Source: Acidimicrobiia bacterium
Lineage (GTDB): Bacteria; Actinomycetota; Acidimicrobiia; IMCC26256; PALSA-555
Length of the DNA: 64,000 nt
Assembly: GCA_040881685.1 (NCBI GenBank)
Contig: JBBECS010000003.1
Location: forward strand, 85,472 to 149,471
Direction: 5' to 3'
The notes under the pieces are model-generated. The model did no database searches. It was given only the letters and a program-made list of their open reading frames with translations, and was not told where the DNA came from. Shown piece by piece: positions 2,122 to 53,915 of the stretch (position 1 is its first letter; every line of letters starts with the position of its first letter). The translations under genes and the position numbers were made by a program.

Positions 2122-2757
2122 TCAGCTGACCCCGGCGGCCGCAGCAACGGACGCCAGCTCACGGTTGGAGATCACCTCGTCGATGATGCCGTACTCCTTG
2201 GCCTCCGGTGCGCTCATGATGAAGTCGCGGTCGGTGTCGTGACCGACCTTCTCCACCGTCTGGCCGGTGTGGTGCGCGAGCAGCCGGTCGAGCAGCTCTC
2301 GCATGCGCACGATCTCTTTGGCCTGGATCTCGATGTCGACCGCTTGGCCCGATGTACCGCCATGCGGCTGGTGGATGAGGATCCGCGCGTGCGGGAGCGC
2401 GTAGCGCTTGCCTGGCGCACCTGCGGCGAGCAGCACGGCCGCAGCCGACGCCGCTTGCCCCACGCAGATCGTCTGCACGTTTGGCTTGATGTACTGCATC
2501 GTGTCGTAGATCGCGAACAGCGCGGTGATCTCGCCACCCGGAGAGTTGACGTAGATCGAGATGTCCTTGTCGGGATCTTCGCTTTCGAGGTGCAGGAGCT
2601 GAGCGATGAGGAGGTTCGACACCGCATCATCAATCGGCGTGCCGAGGAAGATGATGCGTTCCTTGAGCAATCGCGAGTAGATGTCGAACGCGCGCTCGCC
2701 GCGGTTGGTCTGCTCGATGACGGTCGGAACGAGATAGTTCCTGATCGGCTCGCTCAC
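2122..2757 (-). CDS. clpP: ATP-dependent Clp protease proteolytic subunit ClpP
   Basis: Serine peptidase subunit of the barrel-shaped Clp protease that works with ClpX. The protein has 211 residues. The catalytic triad is Ser104 in GQAASAAA, His129 in ILIHQP and Asp178 in DTDRD; the Ser-His-Asp spacings of 25 and 49 match E. coli ClpP. The ATG at 2757 overlaps the tig stop by 4 bp (ATGA), so translation is probably coupled. Many actinobacteria carry two adjacent clpP genes (clpP1-clpP2); only one is present here, and any second copy must lie elsewhere. No propeptide boundary can be read with certainty. Confidence 0.98.
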
Positions 2758-4274
2758 TCGCTCGGCTCCTCTTGTACTGGTCGACTTCGCTGCGCGCTCC
2801 CGGCCGTCGGGCCAGCGCTCCGCTGCGTCTCTGCTGCCTGCTCGGATGGTGCGGACTCGCTCTCCTCATCCTCGATGGCCGAACCACCGGGGAGGCTCAG
2901 ATCGACGGGGTTGCCGGAAACGTCCACGACCGTGGCGTGGTCGACCATGAATTGGAGGGCTTTGCCACGGGCGATGTCAGAGCGTACCGCCTCCAATGCG
3001 CCCCTTTGTTCGAACTCTTTGCGCACCTTCTGGGGCTTCTCCCCTGCCCGTTCGGCGAGGCTGGCAATCTCGGCGTCGACATCCTCGTCGGTGGCCTCGA
3101 TGCCCTCCTGGGCGACGACCGCTCGGAGCGCGAGGTCGGCCCGGACCCCGAGGGTGGAGCCGGCCCGCAGGTCCTCGACGAACGTGTCCTGCTCCTGACC
3201 GGTGGCGGCCAGGTATTGGGCGATCGTCGCGCCCTGGTGCTCGAGGCGGCGCGCAAGGTCGTGGACGCGGCGTTCCATCTCACCGGCGATGAGCGCGTCG
3301 GGCAGCTCGTCGTCGACGAGCTGCGCCGCCGCCTCCAACACCTTGTCGCGCACGAGGAGCTGCGTCTGCACCTTGGCGTACACCTCGAGGCGTTGGCGCG
3401 CATCTTGCTTGAGCTCGTCGATCGTCTCGAACTCGCTGACCTCCGACACCCACTCGTCGGTGACCTCGGGCAACACCTTGCGCTTGCCTTCCTTCACAAG
3501 CACCTGGAACGTGACGTCCTCACCCGCGCGCTCACCGACTCCACTGGTCGGCGTCGTAGGCGACGCCTCCGCCACCGACCGTCCACGCCGCTCGGCGGCG
3601 AGTCGGTCAGGCAGCGAGTCGTTGAACTTGAGAATGTCGCCCGGCTTCTTCCCGCGAAGCTCGTCGTCGAGCTTGGGCACGAGGGCACCCGACCCGACCT
3701 CGTACAGGAAGTCGGTGGCGCTCAGCGCGTCAATCACCTCGTCGTGCACCGAGCCCTTGATGTCGATTTGCGCGTAGTCGCCGTCAGCGAGCGGGCCTGT
3801 CTTGTCCTCGAGGTCCGCGAAGCGGTCGCGCAGCATGTCTATCTGATTGTCGATGGCATTGTCGGGGACCTCGGGATCGGAAACCTCGATGCGCAGGTCG
3901 GCGTACCCGTCCACCCGGACGATCGGGCGCACCTCGACGACAGCGTCGAAGCGCACTTCGCCGTCGTCCTCTCCAGCGGTCACATCGATCTCGGGCGGGG
4001 CGATCACGTCGATGTCCTCGGTGGCGACAGCCTCTGCGTAGTACGCGGGCAGAGCGTCACGCAGTGCTTGCTCACGGGCCAAGCCGGTCCCCAGGCGCGC
4101 CTCGAGTAGCTCACGGGGCGCCTTGCCCGGCCGGAAGCCGGCGATCTTCACCTCGCTCGCGAGTTTCCGGAACGCCGCGTCGACGGCCTTCTCGAACTCG
4201 GCGGCAGGGATCGCGACGCTCAGACGAACCTTGTTGCCCTCGAGCGGCTCGACAGACGTCGTGAGGGTCGGCAT
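2754..4274 (-). CDS. tig: Trigger factor, ribosome-associated chaperone/prolyl isomerase
   Basis: Chaperone that docks at the ribosomal exit tunnel and meets nascent chains. The 506 residues comprise the N-terminal ribosome-binding domain with signature GFRPGKAP (46-53), a central FKBP-type domain from about 163, and the C-terminal helical domain. Two features are odd. Residues 225-246, between LPDR and GERAGED in the FKBP-like domain, look like a 22-residue insertion, and its DNA matches a dispersed repeat (see 3537-3602). The last 30 or so residues are a low-complexity, acid- and Ser/Gln-rich tail. First gene of tig-clpP-clpX, with a 4-bp overlap into clpP. The start ATG at 4274 is preceded by an AGGAG-rich stretch. 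Confidence 0.96.
3537..3602 (-). repeat. Family-1 (R1) hairpin repeat apparently inserted in frame inside tig
   Basis: These 66 nt encode tig residues 225-246, which seem extra relative to a normal trigger factor. Their last 32 nt (3568 down to 3537 on the minus strand) match 28 of 32 bases of the R1 copy ending at 52409. The match includes the GGCGTCG/CGACGCC stem (3561-3567 with 3550-3556) and the tail GACCAGTGGAGTC. The first half is also hairpin-rich but does not align well with R1. The length is a multiple of three, so the frame is kept. The insertion is inferred from the family pattern; an alignment of related tig genes would decide. Confidence 0.6.
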
Positions 4275-16997: not shown

Positions 16998-17007
16998 GTC
17001 GAACTTT

Positions 17008-17088
17008 CCGCTCTCGGCCTTGCGGCCGGGCCGCTCAGGCCCCGGCTCGCTGCACCGCAGGGTACCTGCGGCGCGGGCGCTCGCCTCT
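17008..17088 (+). repeat. Family-2 (R2) hairpin repeat, reference copy
   Basis: 81 nt holding two hairpins: GGCC/GGCC near its start, and CCGCAGG (17055-17061), loop GTA, CCTGCGG (17065-17071). About 72 positions match the copy at 25072-25152 by hand alignment with two single-base gaps. It occupies the whole gap between rdgB and the next gene and touches the rdgB stop codon. Read on the minus strand it could be an intrinsic or structural 3' end. Confidence 0.75.
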
Positions 17089-25053: not shown

Positions 25054-25071
25054 GGGCGAGGACTCTAATTC

Positions 25072-25152
25072 CCGCTCTTGGCCCTTCGGGCCGGGCCGCT
25101 AGGCCACGGCTCACTGCGCCGCAGGATACCTGCGGCGCGGACGCTCGCCTCT
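25072..25152 (+). repeat. Family-2 (R2) hairpin repeat, second near-identical copy
   Basis: 81 nt in the same orientation as the 17008 copy. First hairpin GGCCC/GGGCC, second hairpin CCGCAGG (25119-25125), loop ATA, CCTGCGG (25129-25135), then the conserved CGCTCGCCTCT end. It fills the gap between the CoxL-like gene and the nitronate monooxygenase gene and overlaps the latter's TAG stop codon by two bases, as copy 17008 does with rdgB. Confidence 0.75.
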
Positions 25153-38397: not shown

Positions 38398-39378
38398 GTG
38401 TCGCGTCCTGACTCGTACAATCGTGGGCTGCCCTCCCACGCACTGAGCTTCTTCGGCCTCGAGTCGATCGACGAGCGGCGTTGGCGCATGCCCGTCGTCC
38501 GCGGGTTGTGCTCAGGGATGGGAACGCTGTTCGGAGGGTGCGCGCTCGGCGCATCGATCGAGATCCTCGAGCACATGACGGAGAGGCCGCTGGTGTGGGC
38601 CACCGCGCAGTTCTTGGAGTTCGCGCGCCCGCCGTCCGTCGTCGAGCTCGAAGCAACGGAGGTTGTGCACGGGCACGCGTCCTCGCAGGCGCGCGTGCTC
38701 GCGCACGTCGACGGTCAAGAGATCTTCACGGTCGTCGCCGCGCTCGGGCGACGCACGTTGCCGTGGGAGGGCGAGTGGGCAGTCCGGCCGGACCTGCCGT
38801 CGGTGGCAGACAGCAAGCCGCGCCCGCTCGCACCCCGTTTCGAGGGCACGATCGCAGAGCGGCTCGCCATGCGCCTTGCGAACGGGAGAGACACCGAGCA
38901 CCTCGACGGCACGCCGACGCCTGACGGGCGAAGCGCGCTGTGGGTGCGGGTGCCCTTCGGCACCGAGGCGACAGCGGCCGCGCTCGCGATCGTGGCCGAC
39001 TACGTGCCTTTCGGGGTGGGCCAGGCCCTCGGACACCAGATCTCGGGCAACAGCATCGACAACACGCTGCGCCTGGTCCGGGCGGGTACGACGGAGTGGG
39101 TGCTTGCCGACGTGCGGGTACAGGCGGTGTCCGGTGGATTCGGGCACGGCGTCGTACACCTGTGGGCGGAGGACGGCACACTGCTGGCGACCGCAAGCCA
39201 GTCCGTCATCGTGCGCGACCAGCACACCGGGTCGGATGACCCGGAGCGGCGAACGTCCCAACCGGCGGCGGTGAGGCGACCGGGCGGCTTTGCCGACCCG
39301 GCGCCGGCGGAGACGAAGCCTGCGGAGTCGACCAGAGATGCAGGTACCCTGCCGCCGAGTGAGCCCGACCAAGGTTGA
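38398..39378 (+). CDS. Double-hotdog acyl-CoA thioesterase-like protein
   Basis: 326 residues. Two tandem hotdog-fold halves can be seen: one around GLCSGMGTLFGGCALGASIEILEHMTERPLVWATAQFLEFARPP, the second around DYVPFGVGQALGHQISGNSIDNTLRLV and WVLADVRVQAVSGGFGHGVVHLWAEDG. This is the TesB/4HBT_3 type arrangement of acyl-CoA thioesterases. The C-terminal 60 residues are Pro- and acid-rich and look disordered. The start is GTG 38398, 3 bp after the unknown gene. An LLM oxidoreductase gene follows by 13 bp. Substrate unknown. Confidence 0.86.
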   Translation: MSRPDSYNRGLPSHALSFFGLESIDERRWRMPVVRGLCSGMGTLFGGCALGASIEILEHMTERPLVWATAQFLEFARPPSVVELEATEVVHGHASSQARVLAHVDGQEIFTVVAALGRRTLPWEGEWAVRPDLPSVADSKPRPLAPRFEGTIAERLAMRLANGRDTEHLDGTPTPDGRSALWVRVPFGTEATAAALAIVADYVPFGVGQALGHQISGNSIDNTLRLVRAGTTEWVLADVRVQAVSGGFGHGVVHLWAEDGTLLATASQSVIVRDQHTGSDDPERRTSQPAAVRRPGGFADPAPAETKPAESTRDAGTLPPSEPDQG

Positions 39379-41911: not shown

Positions 41912-41928
41912 GCCGAGAGGCTACCGAC

Positions 41929-41965
41929 CGAGCCGCACGTACCCTGCGGCGCAGGTAGCCGGGGG
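41929..41965 (-). repeat. Family-2 (R2) hairpin repeat, inverted copy
   Basis: On the minus strand CCCCGGCT, CTGCG, then CCGCAGG, loop GTA and CGTGCGG with one mismatch, then CTCGG. It aligns with the centre of the 17008 copy. A family-1 copy in the opposite orientation starts 20 nt further on. Confidence 0.55.
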
Positions 41966-41984
41966 CCGAGCGCCCCGGCGCGAA

Positions 41985-42044
41985 GGCGGCGGCTTTGCCG
42001 ACCGCCGGAGCAGGAGTCGTCGCTCGCGACGACGACCAATGGAG
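41985..42044 (+). repeat. Family-1 (R1) double-hairpin repeat, 60 nt
   Basis: It matches the copy at 52348-52407 at 53 of 60 positions by hand. The second hairpin is GTCGTCG (42016-42022), loop CTCG, CGACGAC (42027-42033). In the other copies it is GGCGTCG/CGACGCC, so a G-C pair has become T-A with both partners changed. It ends GACCAATGGAG. It lies in the gap between the SRAP gene and the maleylpyruvate isomerase-like gene. Confidence 0.75.
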
Positions 42045-42075
42045 GCGTAGCGCCGAGAGCGGGAAGGAGATGAGA

Positions 42076-49526: not shown

Positions 49527-52280
49527 TCAGCGCCCGTGACAGAGCTTGAACTTCTTGCCGCTCCCGCAGTAGCAGGGCTCGTTGCGCCCCGGCGTCTTGT
49601 CGACCGTCACGGGTTGCTGTTGAACCTCCGTGTCGGCGATGGGCTCGACCACCTCGCCGAACGGCGCCTCCTCCACCTCCGCGGGTGGTGCGCTTGCGGC
49701 GACGTCGCGCAGGCCACCGGAGCCCTGGACCGGGTCTTCCGGCGCGCTGTAACGCAGATTGCGCGGGGCGGCACGCTCCGGCTCCTCCGCGACGACCTGG
49801 AGGTGGGTGACGAACTGCACGAAGTTGTCTTCGATGAGAGCCATCATCGCCTCGAACATGTCGTAGCCCTCGCGCTGCCACTCGGCGAGCGGGTCACGCT
49901 GGCCCATGGCGCGCAGGTTGATGCCTTCGCGCAGGTAGTCCATCTCGTAGAGGTGCTCGCGCCAGTGTTGGTCGATCACCGAGAGCATCACCCGACGCTC
50001 GAGCTCTCGCAGCTGCTCGGAGCCGACGACTTCTTCCTTGGCGGCGTACTGCGCAAGCGCGTCGGCGACCACGAGCTCGCGGAGCTGGTCCACGTGCATG
50101 GATTCGTTGAGTGCCGCGCGCTCGAGCTGGGTGGGCAACGTGACCAGCAGGTTCCGATGGAACTCGTCGAGGTCCCAGTCTTCGGGGAACTCGCCCGGGC
50201 AGTTCGCCTCGATGAGTCGGTCGAGCGCGTCCTCGATCGCTTCGAGCGCCTGCTCGCGCAGGTCCTCACCGTCGAGGATCTGCTGGCGGCGCCGGTAGAT
50301 CACCTTGCGCTGCTCGTTCATCACCTCGTCGTACTTGAGAACGTCCTTGCGGATCTCGAAGTTGCGGTCCTCGACGGTGCGCTGCGCGCGCTCGATCGCC
50401 TTCGTCACCATCTTCGCTTCGAGCGGCATGTCGTCTGGGAACGCGCGGTCCATCACCCAGCTCATCGCGCCCGTCGCGAAGAGCCGCATGAGGTCGTCCT
50501 CGAGCGACAGATAGAACCGGCTCTCCCCCGGGTCGCCCTGGCGTCCTGACCGACCGCGGAGCTGGTTGTCGATGCGGCGGCTCTCGTGTCGCTCGGTGCC
50601 GAGCACATACAGACCACCGAGCTGGCGGACCTGCTCACCCTCTTCGTTGCACTGCTCCCGGTACTTGCGGATCAGCTCGGCGAAGCGTTGCGGATCGTCC
50701 GCGGGCGACGAGCCCTCGGCCAGGAGGTCACTGCGGGCGAGGCCCTCGGGGTTGCCACCGAGGAGGATGTCGACGCCGCGGCCGGCCATATTCGTCGCAA
50801 CCGTGACCGCATGCGGCCGTCCGGCCTGCGTCACGATGTGCGCTTCCTTCTCGTGCTGCTTGGCGTTCAGCACCGCGTGTTGGATGCCCCGGCGCTGGAG
50901 CAGACCCGAGAGGTGCTCAGACTTCTCGACCGAGATCGTGCCGACGAGTACAGGTTGACCGCGCTCGAAGCACTCCTGGATGTCGTCGGCCACGGCTTCG
51001 AACTTCGAAGCCTCGCTCTTGTAAATGAGATCGGGGTGGTCGGCTCGGATCATCAAGACGTTCGTTGGGATGGAGACCACTTCGAGCCCGTACGTGTGCG
51101 CGAATTCGCCCGCCTCCGTGGCGGCCGTACCCGTCATGCCCGCGAGCTTGTCGTACATGCGGAAGTAGTTCTGGAGGGTCACCGTGGCGAGCGTCTGGTT
51201 CTCCTCCTTGATGCGCACGCCTTCCTTGGCCTCGACCGCTTGGTGCAGACCTTCGCTCCACCGTCGCCCCTCGAGGATCCGGCCCGTGAACTCGTCGACG
51301 ATCTTCACTTCGCCGTCGGCCACGACGTAGTCGACATCACGCTTGAAGAGCTCCTTGGCGCGCAGCGCCGCCTGGAGCTGGTGCACGAAGTTCTGGTTGA
51401 CGTGCTCGTAGAGGTTGGTAACGGACAGCGCCTCCTCGACCCGGCCGATGCCCTCCTCGGTTGGCACGACGGTTCGCTTCGCCTCGTCGACCTCGTAATC
51501 CCGATCGCGCATGAGCCCGCCGACGATTCGGGCGAACTGGTAGTAGAGCTGCTGAGCGTCATCGGCACGACCCGAGATGATGAGCGGGGTGCGCGCCTCG
51601 TCGACCAGGATCGAGTCGACCTCGTCGACGATCGCGAACGAGTGCCCGCGCTGCACCTGCTCTTCTCGAGAACCGGCCATGTTGTCGCGGAGGTAGTCGA
51701 ACCCGAACTCGTTGTTCGTGCCGTGTGTGATGTCGGCGTTGTACGCGATCTTCTTCTCGTCCCAGTCGTCGATCTCGGGGATGACGACGCCGACTTCCAT
51801 GCCCAAGAAGCTGTAGATCTGGCCCATCCACTCGGCGTCGCGTTTGGCGAGGTAGTCGTTCACCGTGATGAGGTGGACGCCGTATCCCGCAAGCGCGTTG
51901 AGGTAGGCCGGCAACGTGGCCACGAGCGTCTTGCCCTCACCCGTCTTCATCTCAGCAACCCAGCCGAAGTGAAGCGCGGCGCCGCCCATGATCTGCACGT
52001 CGAAGTGCCGTTGGCCGATCGTGCGCTTCGCGGCCTCGCGGACAGCGGCGAACGCCTCCGGCAGCAGCTCGTCGAGCATGTCGATCCGAGCCTCACGATC
52101 GGTCACGGGATCGCCGGCCTCGTCCACACGGGCACGGAACTCGGCGGTGAGTGCACGCAGCTCGTCGTCGCTGCGCGCTTCCATCTCCGGCTCGAGCGCG
52201 TTGACTTCGGGCACGATCGACCCGAGAAGCTTGAGCTTCTTGCCCTCGCCGGCGTGAAGGAGCTTGTTGAAGAGGCCCAT
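49527..52280 (-). CDS. secA: Preprotein translocase ATPase SecA
   Basis: Motor of the Sec secretion pathway. 917 residues. Walker A is MKTGEGKTLVA (GEGKT at 114-118) and DEVDSILVDEARTPLIISG carries the DEAD-type Walker B. VGTISVEKSEHLS, TNMAGRGVDILLGGN, RRIDNQLRGRSGRQGDPG and the scaffold/IRA region (SVIDQHWREHLYEMDYLREGINLRAMGQRDP) follow. The C-terminal zinc motif is intact (Cys903, Cys905, Cys914, His915), so it is the SecB/lipid-interacting SEC-C form. The start is ATG 52280; the upstream open frame is a shadow. This is SecA1 by context (hpf and comF nearby, prfB downstream). Confidence 0.98.
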   Translation of the reverse strand: MGLFNKLLHAGEGKKLKLLGSIVPEVNALEPEMEARSDDELRALTAEFRARVDEAGDPVTDREARIDMLDELLPEAFAAVREAAKRTIGQRHFDVQIMGGAALHFGWVAEMKTGEGKTLVATLPAYLNALAGYGVHLITVNDYLAKRDAEWMGQIYSFLGMEVGVVIPEIDDWDEKKIAYNADITHGTNNEFGFDYLRDNMAGSREEQVQRGHSFAIVDEVDSILVDEARTPLIISGRADDAQQLYYQFARIVGGLMRDRDYEVDEAKRTVVPTEEGIGRVEEALSVTNLYEHVNQNFVHQLQAALRAKELFKRDVDYVVADGEVKIVDEFTGRILEGRRWSEGLHQAVEAKEGVRIKEENQTLATVTLQNYFRMYDKLAGMTGTAATEAGEFAHTYGLEVVSIPTNVLMIRADHPDLIYKSEASKFEAVADDIQECFERGQPVLVGTISVEKSEHLSGLLQRRGIQHAVLNAKQHEKEAHIVTQAGRPHAVTVATNMAGRGVDILLGGNPEGLARSDLLAEGSSPADDPQRFAELIRKYREQCNEEGEQVRQLGGLYVLGTERHESRRIDNQLRGRSGRQGDPGESRFYLSLEDDLMRLFATGAMSWVMDRAFPDDMPLEAKMVTKAIERAQRTVEDRNFEIRKDVLKYDEVMNEQRKVIYRRRQQILDGEDLREQALEAIEDALDRLIEANCPGEFPEDWDLDEFHRNLLVTLPTQLERAALNESMHVDQLRELVVADALAQYAAKEEVVGSEQLRELERRVMLSVIDQHWREHLYEMDYLREGINLRAMGQRDPLAEWQREGYDMFEAMMALIEDNFVQFVTHLQVVAEEPERAAPRNLRYSAPEDPVQGSGGLRDVAASAPPAEVEEAPFGEVVEPIADTEVQQQPVTVDKTPGRNEPCYCGSGKKFKLCHGR

Positions 52281-52347
52281 GACGGCGTTCAGCCTACCGG
52301 TGCCACCTGCCGTTCCTGGCCCGCAGTGCTCTGAGAGCATTCGCGTA

Positions 52348-52407
52348 GGCGGCGGCTTCGCCGACCGCCGGAGCAACAGGCGTCGCCCGCGACGCCGACC
52401 AAAGGAG
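52348..52407 (+). repeat. Family-1 (R1) double-hairpin repeat supplying a ribosome binding site
   Basis: 60 nt: a first hairpin with core GGCTTCGCC, then GGCGTCG (52379-52385), loop CCCG, CGACGCC (52390-52396) and the tail GACCAAAGGAG. The final GGAG (52404-52407) lies five bases before the GTG start of the DUF2079 gene and is its only visible Shine-Dalgarno sequence. 53 of 60 bases equal the 41985 copy. Confidence 0.75.
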
Positions 52408-52412
52408 TCAGA

Positions 52413-53915
52413 GTGACGGTCACGATCGAGGGCGCAGGAGCGGCACTTCGACCGCGCCCGCGTGCGGCGAGCATCGTGCGCTCGCTGCCCCATCCCGCGG
52501 TCCTGACGCTGGCGATGTTCACCACCGCGTGGTTCGTGACCTTCGCCGTCCTCGTCGTTCGTCGCCATCACGGCTTCTGGGATCTGGCGTTCGACATGGG
52601 CATCCACGACCAGTCGGTGTGGCTGCTCGCCCATGGTCGCGACTTCATGACGGTTCGGGGCCTCGACGTGTTCGGGCACCACGCGACGCCCGCGTACTAC
52701 TTGCTTGTCCCTGCCTACTGGCTCGGAGCGGGACCCGACTTCCTCAATCTGTTCCAGGTGAGCGCACTCGCGCTCGGCACGATCCCGCTGTACCTGCTGG
52801 CACGCGACCGTGGGCTGTCACCCTGGGTGGGTGCCGCGCTCGGCAGCGCGCTTCTGCTGCACCCCGCCGTCCAGTTCTTCTCTTGGGAGCTGTTCCACCC
52901 CGAGGTCGTCGCGATCACACCGCTGTTGTGCGCGTACCTGTGTGCGTCGCGTCGATCGTGGCGATGGTTCGCGTTCTGGGCCGTGTTGGCGGTGTCCTGG
53001 AAAGAGGACGTTGCGCTGGCAGTCATGGTGCTCGGGCTGCTCGTCGCGCTCCGCTGGAACCGCCGGATCGGGCTCGCCACCGCGGGCGTCGCGCTTGGTT
53101 GGTTCGTGCTGTGGACCGTGGTGCTCTTCCCTGCGATCAACGGCGGCCACGTGCAGTCGGAAGGGATCTACCAAGGGGTCGGCGGCTCCGCCGGTGGGAT
53201 GGTCGACACCCTGTTCAACGACCCGGGCGCCATCACGTCACACGTCTTCTCGTCGGAGTCGGGCGACTTCGCATTCCGGCTGCTCGCGCCGTTCGGGTTC
53301 ATTCCGCTGCTCGCGCCTCTGGTGCTGTTGATCGGACTGCCGCAGTTCCTGCTCGACGTGCTGACCGACGCGGGCTGGACCCGGGTGATCCAGCACCACT
53401 ACGCGGCGTTGTGCGTCGCCGCGCTCGCGCTCGCCAGCGTCGAAGGCGTCGCATTCGCGGGCCGCCGCCTCGGTCGCAACGCGCTCGTCGCCGCATGCTG
53501 TCTCGTGGTGGCCGGCGGCATCTTCGGGACACTCTCGTGGGGTCCATCTCCCGTCAGCAGCAAGTACGAAGGTGGGTGGTGGCCAGCCCCGACCGATCCG
53601 CGCATCGACGCCAAGCGGGCGGCAATCGCTCTCGTTCCCGACGACGCGGTCGTGACCGCGACCTACGGAATGCTGCCGCAGCTGAGCCAACGCGCCGAGA
53701 TCTACGACTACCCGAATCCGTGGGAGTCGCGGAACTTCGGTATCGAGGGAGAGCCCACCCGGAACCCACGACGCGTGGAGTGGCTCGTCCTCGACCGGCA
53801 GGTCATCAACCTCGACCCAGCCGCCACCGCGCTCCTTACGACGATCCTGCCCGACTTCAGGATCGTGTTCGAACGCGACGACCTCGTCGTGGCCCGGCGC
53901 CGTGCGGAGACCTGA
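52413..53915 (+). CDS. DUF2079 polytopic membrane protein
   Basis: 500-residue integral membrane protein with about ten hydrophobic segments. The family-typical N-terminal block is FDMGIHDQSVWLLAHGRDFMT...GHHATPAYYLLVPAYWLG, with SWELFHPEVVAI and SWKEDVALAVMVLGLL following. The fold resembles GT-C glycosyltransferases and the Asp/His-rich first loop would suit catalysis, but no activity is established. The C-terminal 90 residues are soluble. The start is GTG 52413 with GGAG contributed by a family-1 repeat. It is divergent from secA and its 3' end overlaps hpf by 59 bp on the other strand. Confidence 0.88.
   Translation: MTVTIEGAGAALRPRPRAASIVRSLPHPAVLTLAMFTTAWFVTFAVLVVRRHHGFWDLAFDMGIHDQSVWLLAHGRDFMTVRGLDVFGHHATPAYYLLVPAYWLGAGPDFLNLFQVSALALGTIPLYLLARDRGLSPWVGAALGSALLLHPAVQFFSWELFHPEVVAITPLLCAYLCASRRSWRWFAFWAVLAVSWKEDVALAVMVLGLLVALRWNRRIGLATAGVALGWFVLWTVVLFPAINGGHVQSEGIYQGVGGSAGGMVDTLFNDPGAITSHVFSSESGDFAFRLLAPFGFIPLLAPLVLLIGLPQFLLDVLTDAGWTRVIQHHYAALCVAALALASVEGVAFAGRRLGRNALVAACCLVVAGGIFGTLSWGPSPVSSKYEGGWWPAPTDPRIDAKRAAIALVPDDAVVTATYGMLPQLSQRAEIYDYPNPWESRNFGIEGEPTRNPRRVEWLVLDRQVINLDPAATALLTTILPDFRIVFERDDLVVARRRAET

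Follow-up and report, generated by a model that had tools for sequence, protein, structure and literature searches.

A dispersed double-hairpin repeat in an Acidimicrobiia genome that behaves as a probable mobile palindromic element

The double hairpin found between secA and the gene for a DUF2079 membrane protein belongs to R1, a dispersed repeat family of 66–70 nt per copy with two consecutive hairpins. We consider R1 to be, with a probability of roughly 80% as judged from sequence, a short non-autonomous mobile palindromic element of the kind represented by Rickettsia palindromic elements (RPE), BIME and BOX. R1 is scattered through the genome, its folds are maintained by compensated base changes, it sits in-frame within protein genes, its orthologous sites are found empty, it nests within another repeat and forms tandems, and its occurrence among genomes is patchy; all of these were observed directly. 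Taken together, the sequence comparisons indicate that R1 behaves as an insertion and not as a conserved regulator.

Throughout, the window is the whole 64,000-nt stretch of DNA that was analysed, and its features are collected in Table 1. The genome from which it derives is denoted G000. G001, from the same genus, is MAG M_DeepCast_50m_m2_189 (Actinomycetota), G002 and G003 are genus-mates, G030 represents another family (78% complete, 5% contamination), and G016 is a family-mate of G030. The comparison base consists of two genomes from the same genus and a third from outside it, all of them drafts.

Table 1 Features of the window that bear on the R1 and R2 repeats
Feature	Position	Strand	Basis
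R1 copy, full extent	52342–52409	+	Covariance-model match, 86.7 bits; G001 homology stops at left edge
Hairpin 1, bulged A and TTC loop	52348–52369	+	Fold; conserved and covarying in 45 copies
Hairpin 2, GGCGTCG-CCCG-CGACGCC	52379–52396	+	Fold; two-sided changes at 6 of 7 pairs, 45 copies
3' tail GACCAAAGGAG	52397–52407	+	Sequence
secA, divergent neighbour	49527–52280	−	Pfam SecA domains; start codon read from sequence
DUF2079 membrane protein, downstream gene	52413–53915	+	Pfam PF09852, 202 bits
Second R1 copy, nested in R2	41979–42046	+	95.9 bits; nesting seen
5' part of R2 hosting R1	41916–41978	+	R2 model match 41916–42015
3' part of host R2, hairpin GGCGTAGCGCC plus GAGAGCGGGAA	42043–42064	+	Sequence against R2 alignment
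R2 repeat	17006–17088	−	
R2 repeat	25070–25152	−	
R2 repeat	41916–42064	+	
Partial R1 copy, chiefly hairpin 2 with tail, in-frame in trigger factor gene	3537–3589	−	33.1 bits
Trigger factor gene	2754–4274	−	Trigger_N, Trigger_C
Degenerate R1-like copy, in-frame near C-terminus of acyl-CoA thioesterase-like gene	39275–39342	+	32.9 bits; Pfam 4HBT_3C

Architecture and covariation of R1

The layout of R1 is CGCGNAG, hairpin 1, GGAGCA, hairpin 2 and GACCAATGGAG, and the order and orientation of the two hairpins are always the same. Hairpin 1 reads GGCGG-CGGC-TTY-GCCG-A-CCGCC, with an inner stem CGGC/GCCG and the A bulged, and hairpin 2 has about seven pairs. The outer stems vary among subfamilies while their pairing is kept. 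The termini, CGCGNAGG and ACCAATGGAG, are not complementary, and comparison of the ends across copies revealed no terminal inverted repeats. The original prediction had every copy ending in GACCAAAGGAG or something close to it; this is broadly the case in the genus of the window but not in G030, where the end reads GACC and is then variable.

The two copies named in that prediction, 41985–42044 and 52348–52407, lie where it had placed them and have 53 of 60 bases in common (seven differences by hand count); their similarity runs somewhat further, over 41979–42046 and 52342–52409. Both double hairpins fold as described (z of −2.2 and −2.9), and the paired change noted in hairpin 2 is a compensated G-C/T-A exchange at the second pair (GGCGTCG/CGACGCC against GTCGTCG/CGACGAC). 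Would such similarity persist once a background of GC-rich hairpins is modelled? R1 copies lie far above the shuffle and Markov background, and the similarity therefore does not disappear in the way that had been envisaged as a refutation. The hairpin-1 28-mer occurs twice in the window against 0.00 expected in window shuffles, and the R1 core motif, for which 5th-order Markov simulations yield 0 occurrences, was counted 10 times across 0.85 Mb of the own genome and 29 times across 1.5 Mb of a relative. The covariance search that had been suggested across the genome, run with a model built from 14 copies, returned 58 own-genome matches at E < 1, with E-values as low as 1e-23.

In an alignment of 45 copies drawn from four genomes, pairing is kept in 96.7% of cells and two-sided changes are present at 11 of the 18 pairs, more than in any of 500 shuffles or any slid control; because the copies are related, the shuffle result alone does not constitute a probability, and the slid controls agree with it. 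The earlier remark that no named element with this layout was known is supported: all Rfam matches to R1 fall below the gathering score and no named sequence family was found. Positions 52379–52407 of the window, comprising hairpin 2 and the tail, match the L31-Coriobacteria ribosomal protein leader of Rfam, probably by chance, with a score of 18.8 bits where the cut-off is 33.

Placement between and within genes

At the reported locus, G001 carries the same divergent secA–DUF2079 pair without R1. Homology with G001 reaches the left edge of R1 and resumes at the DUF2079 start codon, the distance between flank matches in this gap is 110 nt in G001 versus 185 nt in G000, and the comparison of orthologous gaps that had been proposed thus finds the 52342–52409 site empty in G001. 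The composite of R2 and R1 at 41916–42064 is also wholly absent at the orthologous G001 site. The GTG start of the DUF2079 gene (52413) aligns with the ATG of its G001 orthologue, and the terminal AAAGGAG of R1 lies at Shine-Dalgarno distance from it, with GGAG (52404–52407) 5 nt before the GTG. A few other R1 copies occupy a similar position before start codons that are backed by alignment with the other genome. The resemblance of the R1 end to a ribosome binding site, which had been pointed out originally, holds for some copies and is not the general meaning of R1; at the reported copy, a Shine-Dalgarno role of GGAG is probably a secondary use kept by selection.

Placement statistics cover 0.85 Mb of the G000 genome and 1.5 Mb of that of G001. 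Some G001 tiles (L218–L231 and parts of C4 and C5) were picked for holding R1, and densities are not to be derived from them. Intergenic copies number 28, 17 and 4 in tandem, divergent and convergent gaps, against 27.7, 15.9 and 5.4 expected, and follow the available intergenic space. In same-direction gaps R1 shows a mild co-directional excess (20 versus 8, p = 0.036), which, together with the copies at Shine-Dalgarno distance, leaves room for R1 function. One hypothesis is that R1 is a cis-regulatory RNA leader whose two hairpins and Shine-Dalgarno sequence control translation of the next gene, and the spacing before DUF2079, like spacing at several G001 copies, the co-directional excess and the weak sub-threshold L31-Coriobacteria match would all accord with it. 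However, R1 is found inside coding sequence in both orientations, between convergent genes, in tandem and before unrelated downstream genes, orthologous genes do without it, its neighbourhood types are those of random intergenic placement, and the counts of start distances are partly circular because the gene caller gives a higher score to starts preceded by GGAG. We therefore regard the leader hypothesis as improbable.

Copies of R1 also lie inside genes. In rimP of G001, the sequence TID-RAGGGSADRRSTESSPATATNVGEGG-VDL corresponds to TID-RDGG-VDL in G000, so that 22 codons have been added inside the RimP_N domain; the insert is absent from G000 and the other relatives read, and the insertion is accompanied by GCG microhomology only. 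Conversely, an R1-type copy in the tetrapyrrole methylase gene of G000 adds 69 nt, or 23 codons, in-frame after codon 2, and G001 lacks it. G001 further carries R1 in-frame at the C-terminus of FtsH and, at the N-terminus of an FtsI-like protein (L221 79–1998, contig C8), three tandem in-frame 66-nt R1 units, while a MerR-type gene contains R1 in both G000 and G001. These R1-bearing proteins are predicted from sequence, and GGGSADRRSTESSPATATN is an example of a predicted R1-encoded peptide. In total, 14 of 63 copies lie inside coding sequence (nine sense and five antisense) against a coding fraction of ~92%, and most gene insertions have therefore been avoided or lost.

Distribution and proposed mode of movement

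At E ≤ 1e-4, R1 is found 34 times in G000, 50 times in G001, once each in G002 and G003, and 74 times in G030, with none in G016. Class-wide, matches at E ≤ 1e-8 are confined to 4 of 395 genomes, with nothing in the other 391, and in a phylum sample of 397 genomes the own genome alone matches R1 at E ≤ 1e-6. A scan of genome contigs with an exact pattern, one that would miss G030-type ends, recovered the same-genus MAG only, and phages, plasmids and viral contigs gave no R1 match. The R1 consensus of G030 is identical to that of G000 at 52 of 58 positions, and the mean identity among eight G030 copies is ~97%. This patchiness among genomes and similarity among copies fits transfer between lineages together with a recent amplification, although vertical descent combined with losses may be an alternative account.

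How would such an element move? We propose that a single strand of R1 folds into two adjacent hairpins and that a trans-acting enzyme, which would most likely recognise the folded strand, pastes copies of 66–70 bp at further sites, leaving no consistent target-site duplication. As the unit measures close to 66 nt and is stop-free in most frames, some insertions into genes would survive as 22–23 extra codons. The remaining copies would settle in intergenic space or inside R2, and tandems would arise. Where a forward copy comes to lie just 5' of a start codon, its terminal GGAG may take over as the Shine-Dalgarno sequence.

Several candidates for the mode of movement were considered. No consistent target-site duplication was detected in 63 copies, where the best 3-mer offset was seen in 7 of 63 against 2.9 expected, many offsets having been tried; with neither a consistent duplication nor terminal inverted repeats, R1 was rejected as a MITE of the type that has such repeats. 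The IS110 transposase domain PF02371 is present in G000 and G002 and missing from R1-rich G001, and does not follow R1; a G030 match above the cut-off (L292, contig C517) reads as a ComEA-like helix-hairpin-helix protein and is likely false. Reverse transcriptase (PF00078) occurs in G000 (L293, contig C31:1981–2613) and G016 and not in G001 or G030, and does not follow R1 either. A bolder version of the model, possible but doubtful in our judgment, is that R1 moves by an undescribed mechanism, whereby a mostly stop-free folded strand of ~22 codons would be pasted without target-site duplication by an enzyme other than a Y1 or IS110 transposase or a reverse transcriptase, regularly adding peptide segments to essential proteins and carrying its own ribosome binding site.

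An alternative hypothesis makes R1 a true REP element that is tagged by GNAG and moved by a RAYT, a Y1 tyrosine transposase. The position of GNAG 5' of the bulged hairpin 1 is that of the tag in GTAG-tagged REPs (PMC8266576), and R1 copies form BIME-like mosaics. However, the N of GNAG, the second tag base, varies freely, and the R1 unit is longer than a REP of 20–50 nt. Moreover, Y1_Tnp was absent from all six genomes searched, with and without R1 (G000, G001, G002, G003, G016 and G030), by a search that was positive in E. coli and other controls. The RAYT link that the original prediction had suggested looking for is thus not borne out, and we hold a REP identity to be very unlikely.

Mosaics with R2 and relation to known elements

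The repeat R2, which hosts the second R1 copy of the window and in which R1 is often found nested, has 73 model matches in the own genome and is more widespread than R1, being present in 25 of 61 genomes. Its stems covary and carry tandem G-A mismatches, and it ends in GAGAGCGG, a few bases 5' of start codons. In same-direction gaps R2 is co-directional in 26 cases versus 6 (p = 0.0005), unlike R1, and R2 looks the more functional of the two. It is seen with R1, without R1 and, in G001, with R1 hairpin 2 alone; R1 tandems also occur outside R2. The reading of R1 as a mere middle module of a mosaic R2, which would spread as a unit and leave R1 without mobility of its own, could appeal to these G001 mosaics and to the roughly nine own-genome copies at one same R2 position, but it has very little chance of being correct given that many copies stand alone, including those of RimP, FtsH, FtsI and the reported locus, and that R1 nests between R2 hairpins 2 and 3 in G000 versus inside hairpin 2 in G030. 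At L106, L104, L097, L100 and L109, R1-like hairpins sit inside yet another enclosing repeat, GGCGAGCG...CCGAGCGAGC; this appears to be a third family of mosaics, whose stems have GA-rich internal loops.

As a mobile palindromic element, R1 invites comparison with three known systems. Rickettsia palindromic elements and Wolbachia palindromic repeats are short hairpin repeats that lie in intergenic space and in-frame in conserved protein genes, where the RPE inserts are read as peptide, and their mobilising enzyme is not established (PMC10969869, PMC2229807). R1 resembles RPE in being a dispersed palindromic repeat with stable hairpins and in lying in-frame in phylogenetically conserved protein genes, as RimP and the methylase demonstrate against insert-free relatives. 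RPE, however, are ~105–150 bp long with terminal inverted repeats of ~12 bp and belong to obligate intracellular Alphaproteobacteria, whereas R1 measures 66–70 bp, has two hairpins in a row and no terminal inverted repeats, and resides in actinobacteria. BIME/REP sequences, tagged by GTAG or CGTC, are dispersed bulged hairpins that form mosaics and sometimes lie inside ORFs (PMC3733652); R1, by contrast, keeps its two hairpins in one fixed order and orientation and has no conserved GTAG or CGTC tag, and no RAYT gene was found in the six genomes. In pneumococcal BOX elements, outer modules enclose a middle module that can be missing or repeated, and elements are nested mutually (PMC3049150). 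The composite, nested arrangement of R1 with R2 may be similar, but R1 is also found alone and in-frame in genes, and host and composition are unrelated.

By this analogy, R1 is closest in kind to RPE, with features of BIME and BOX, which is a likeness of kind and not a sequence family. We do not file R1 under RPE or REP because the terminal inverted repeats of the former are missing from it, as are the tag and transposase of the latter. Among open-access papers, we found none on such an element in this group, and R1 is apparently a separate actinobacterial family that was recently active. To our knowledge, most palindromic elements described within protein-coding sequence come from the Rickettsiales. 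With its empty same-genus sites and its burst in G030, R1 would offer an independent system in which to seek the mobilising enzyme and to study how frequently essential proteins gain peptide segments from mobile DNA.
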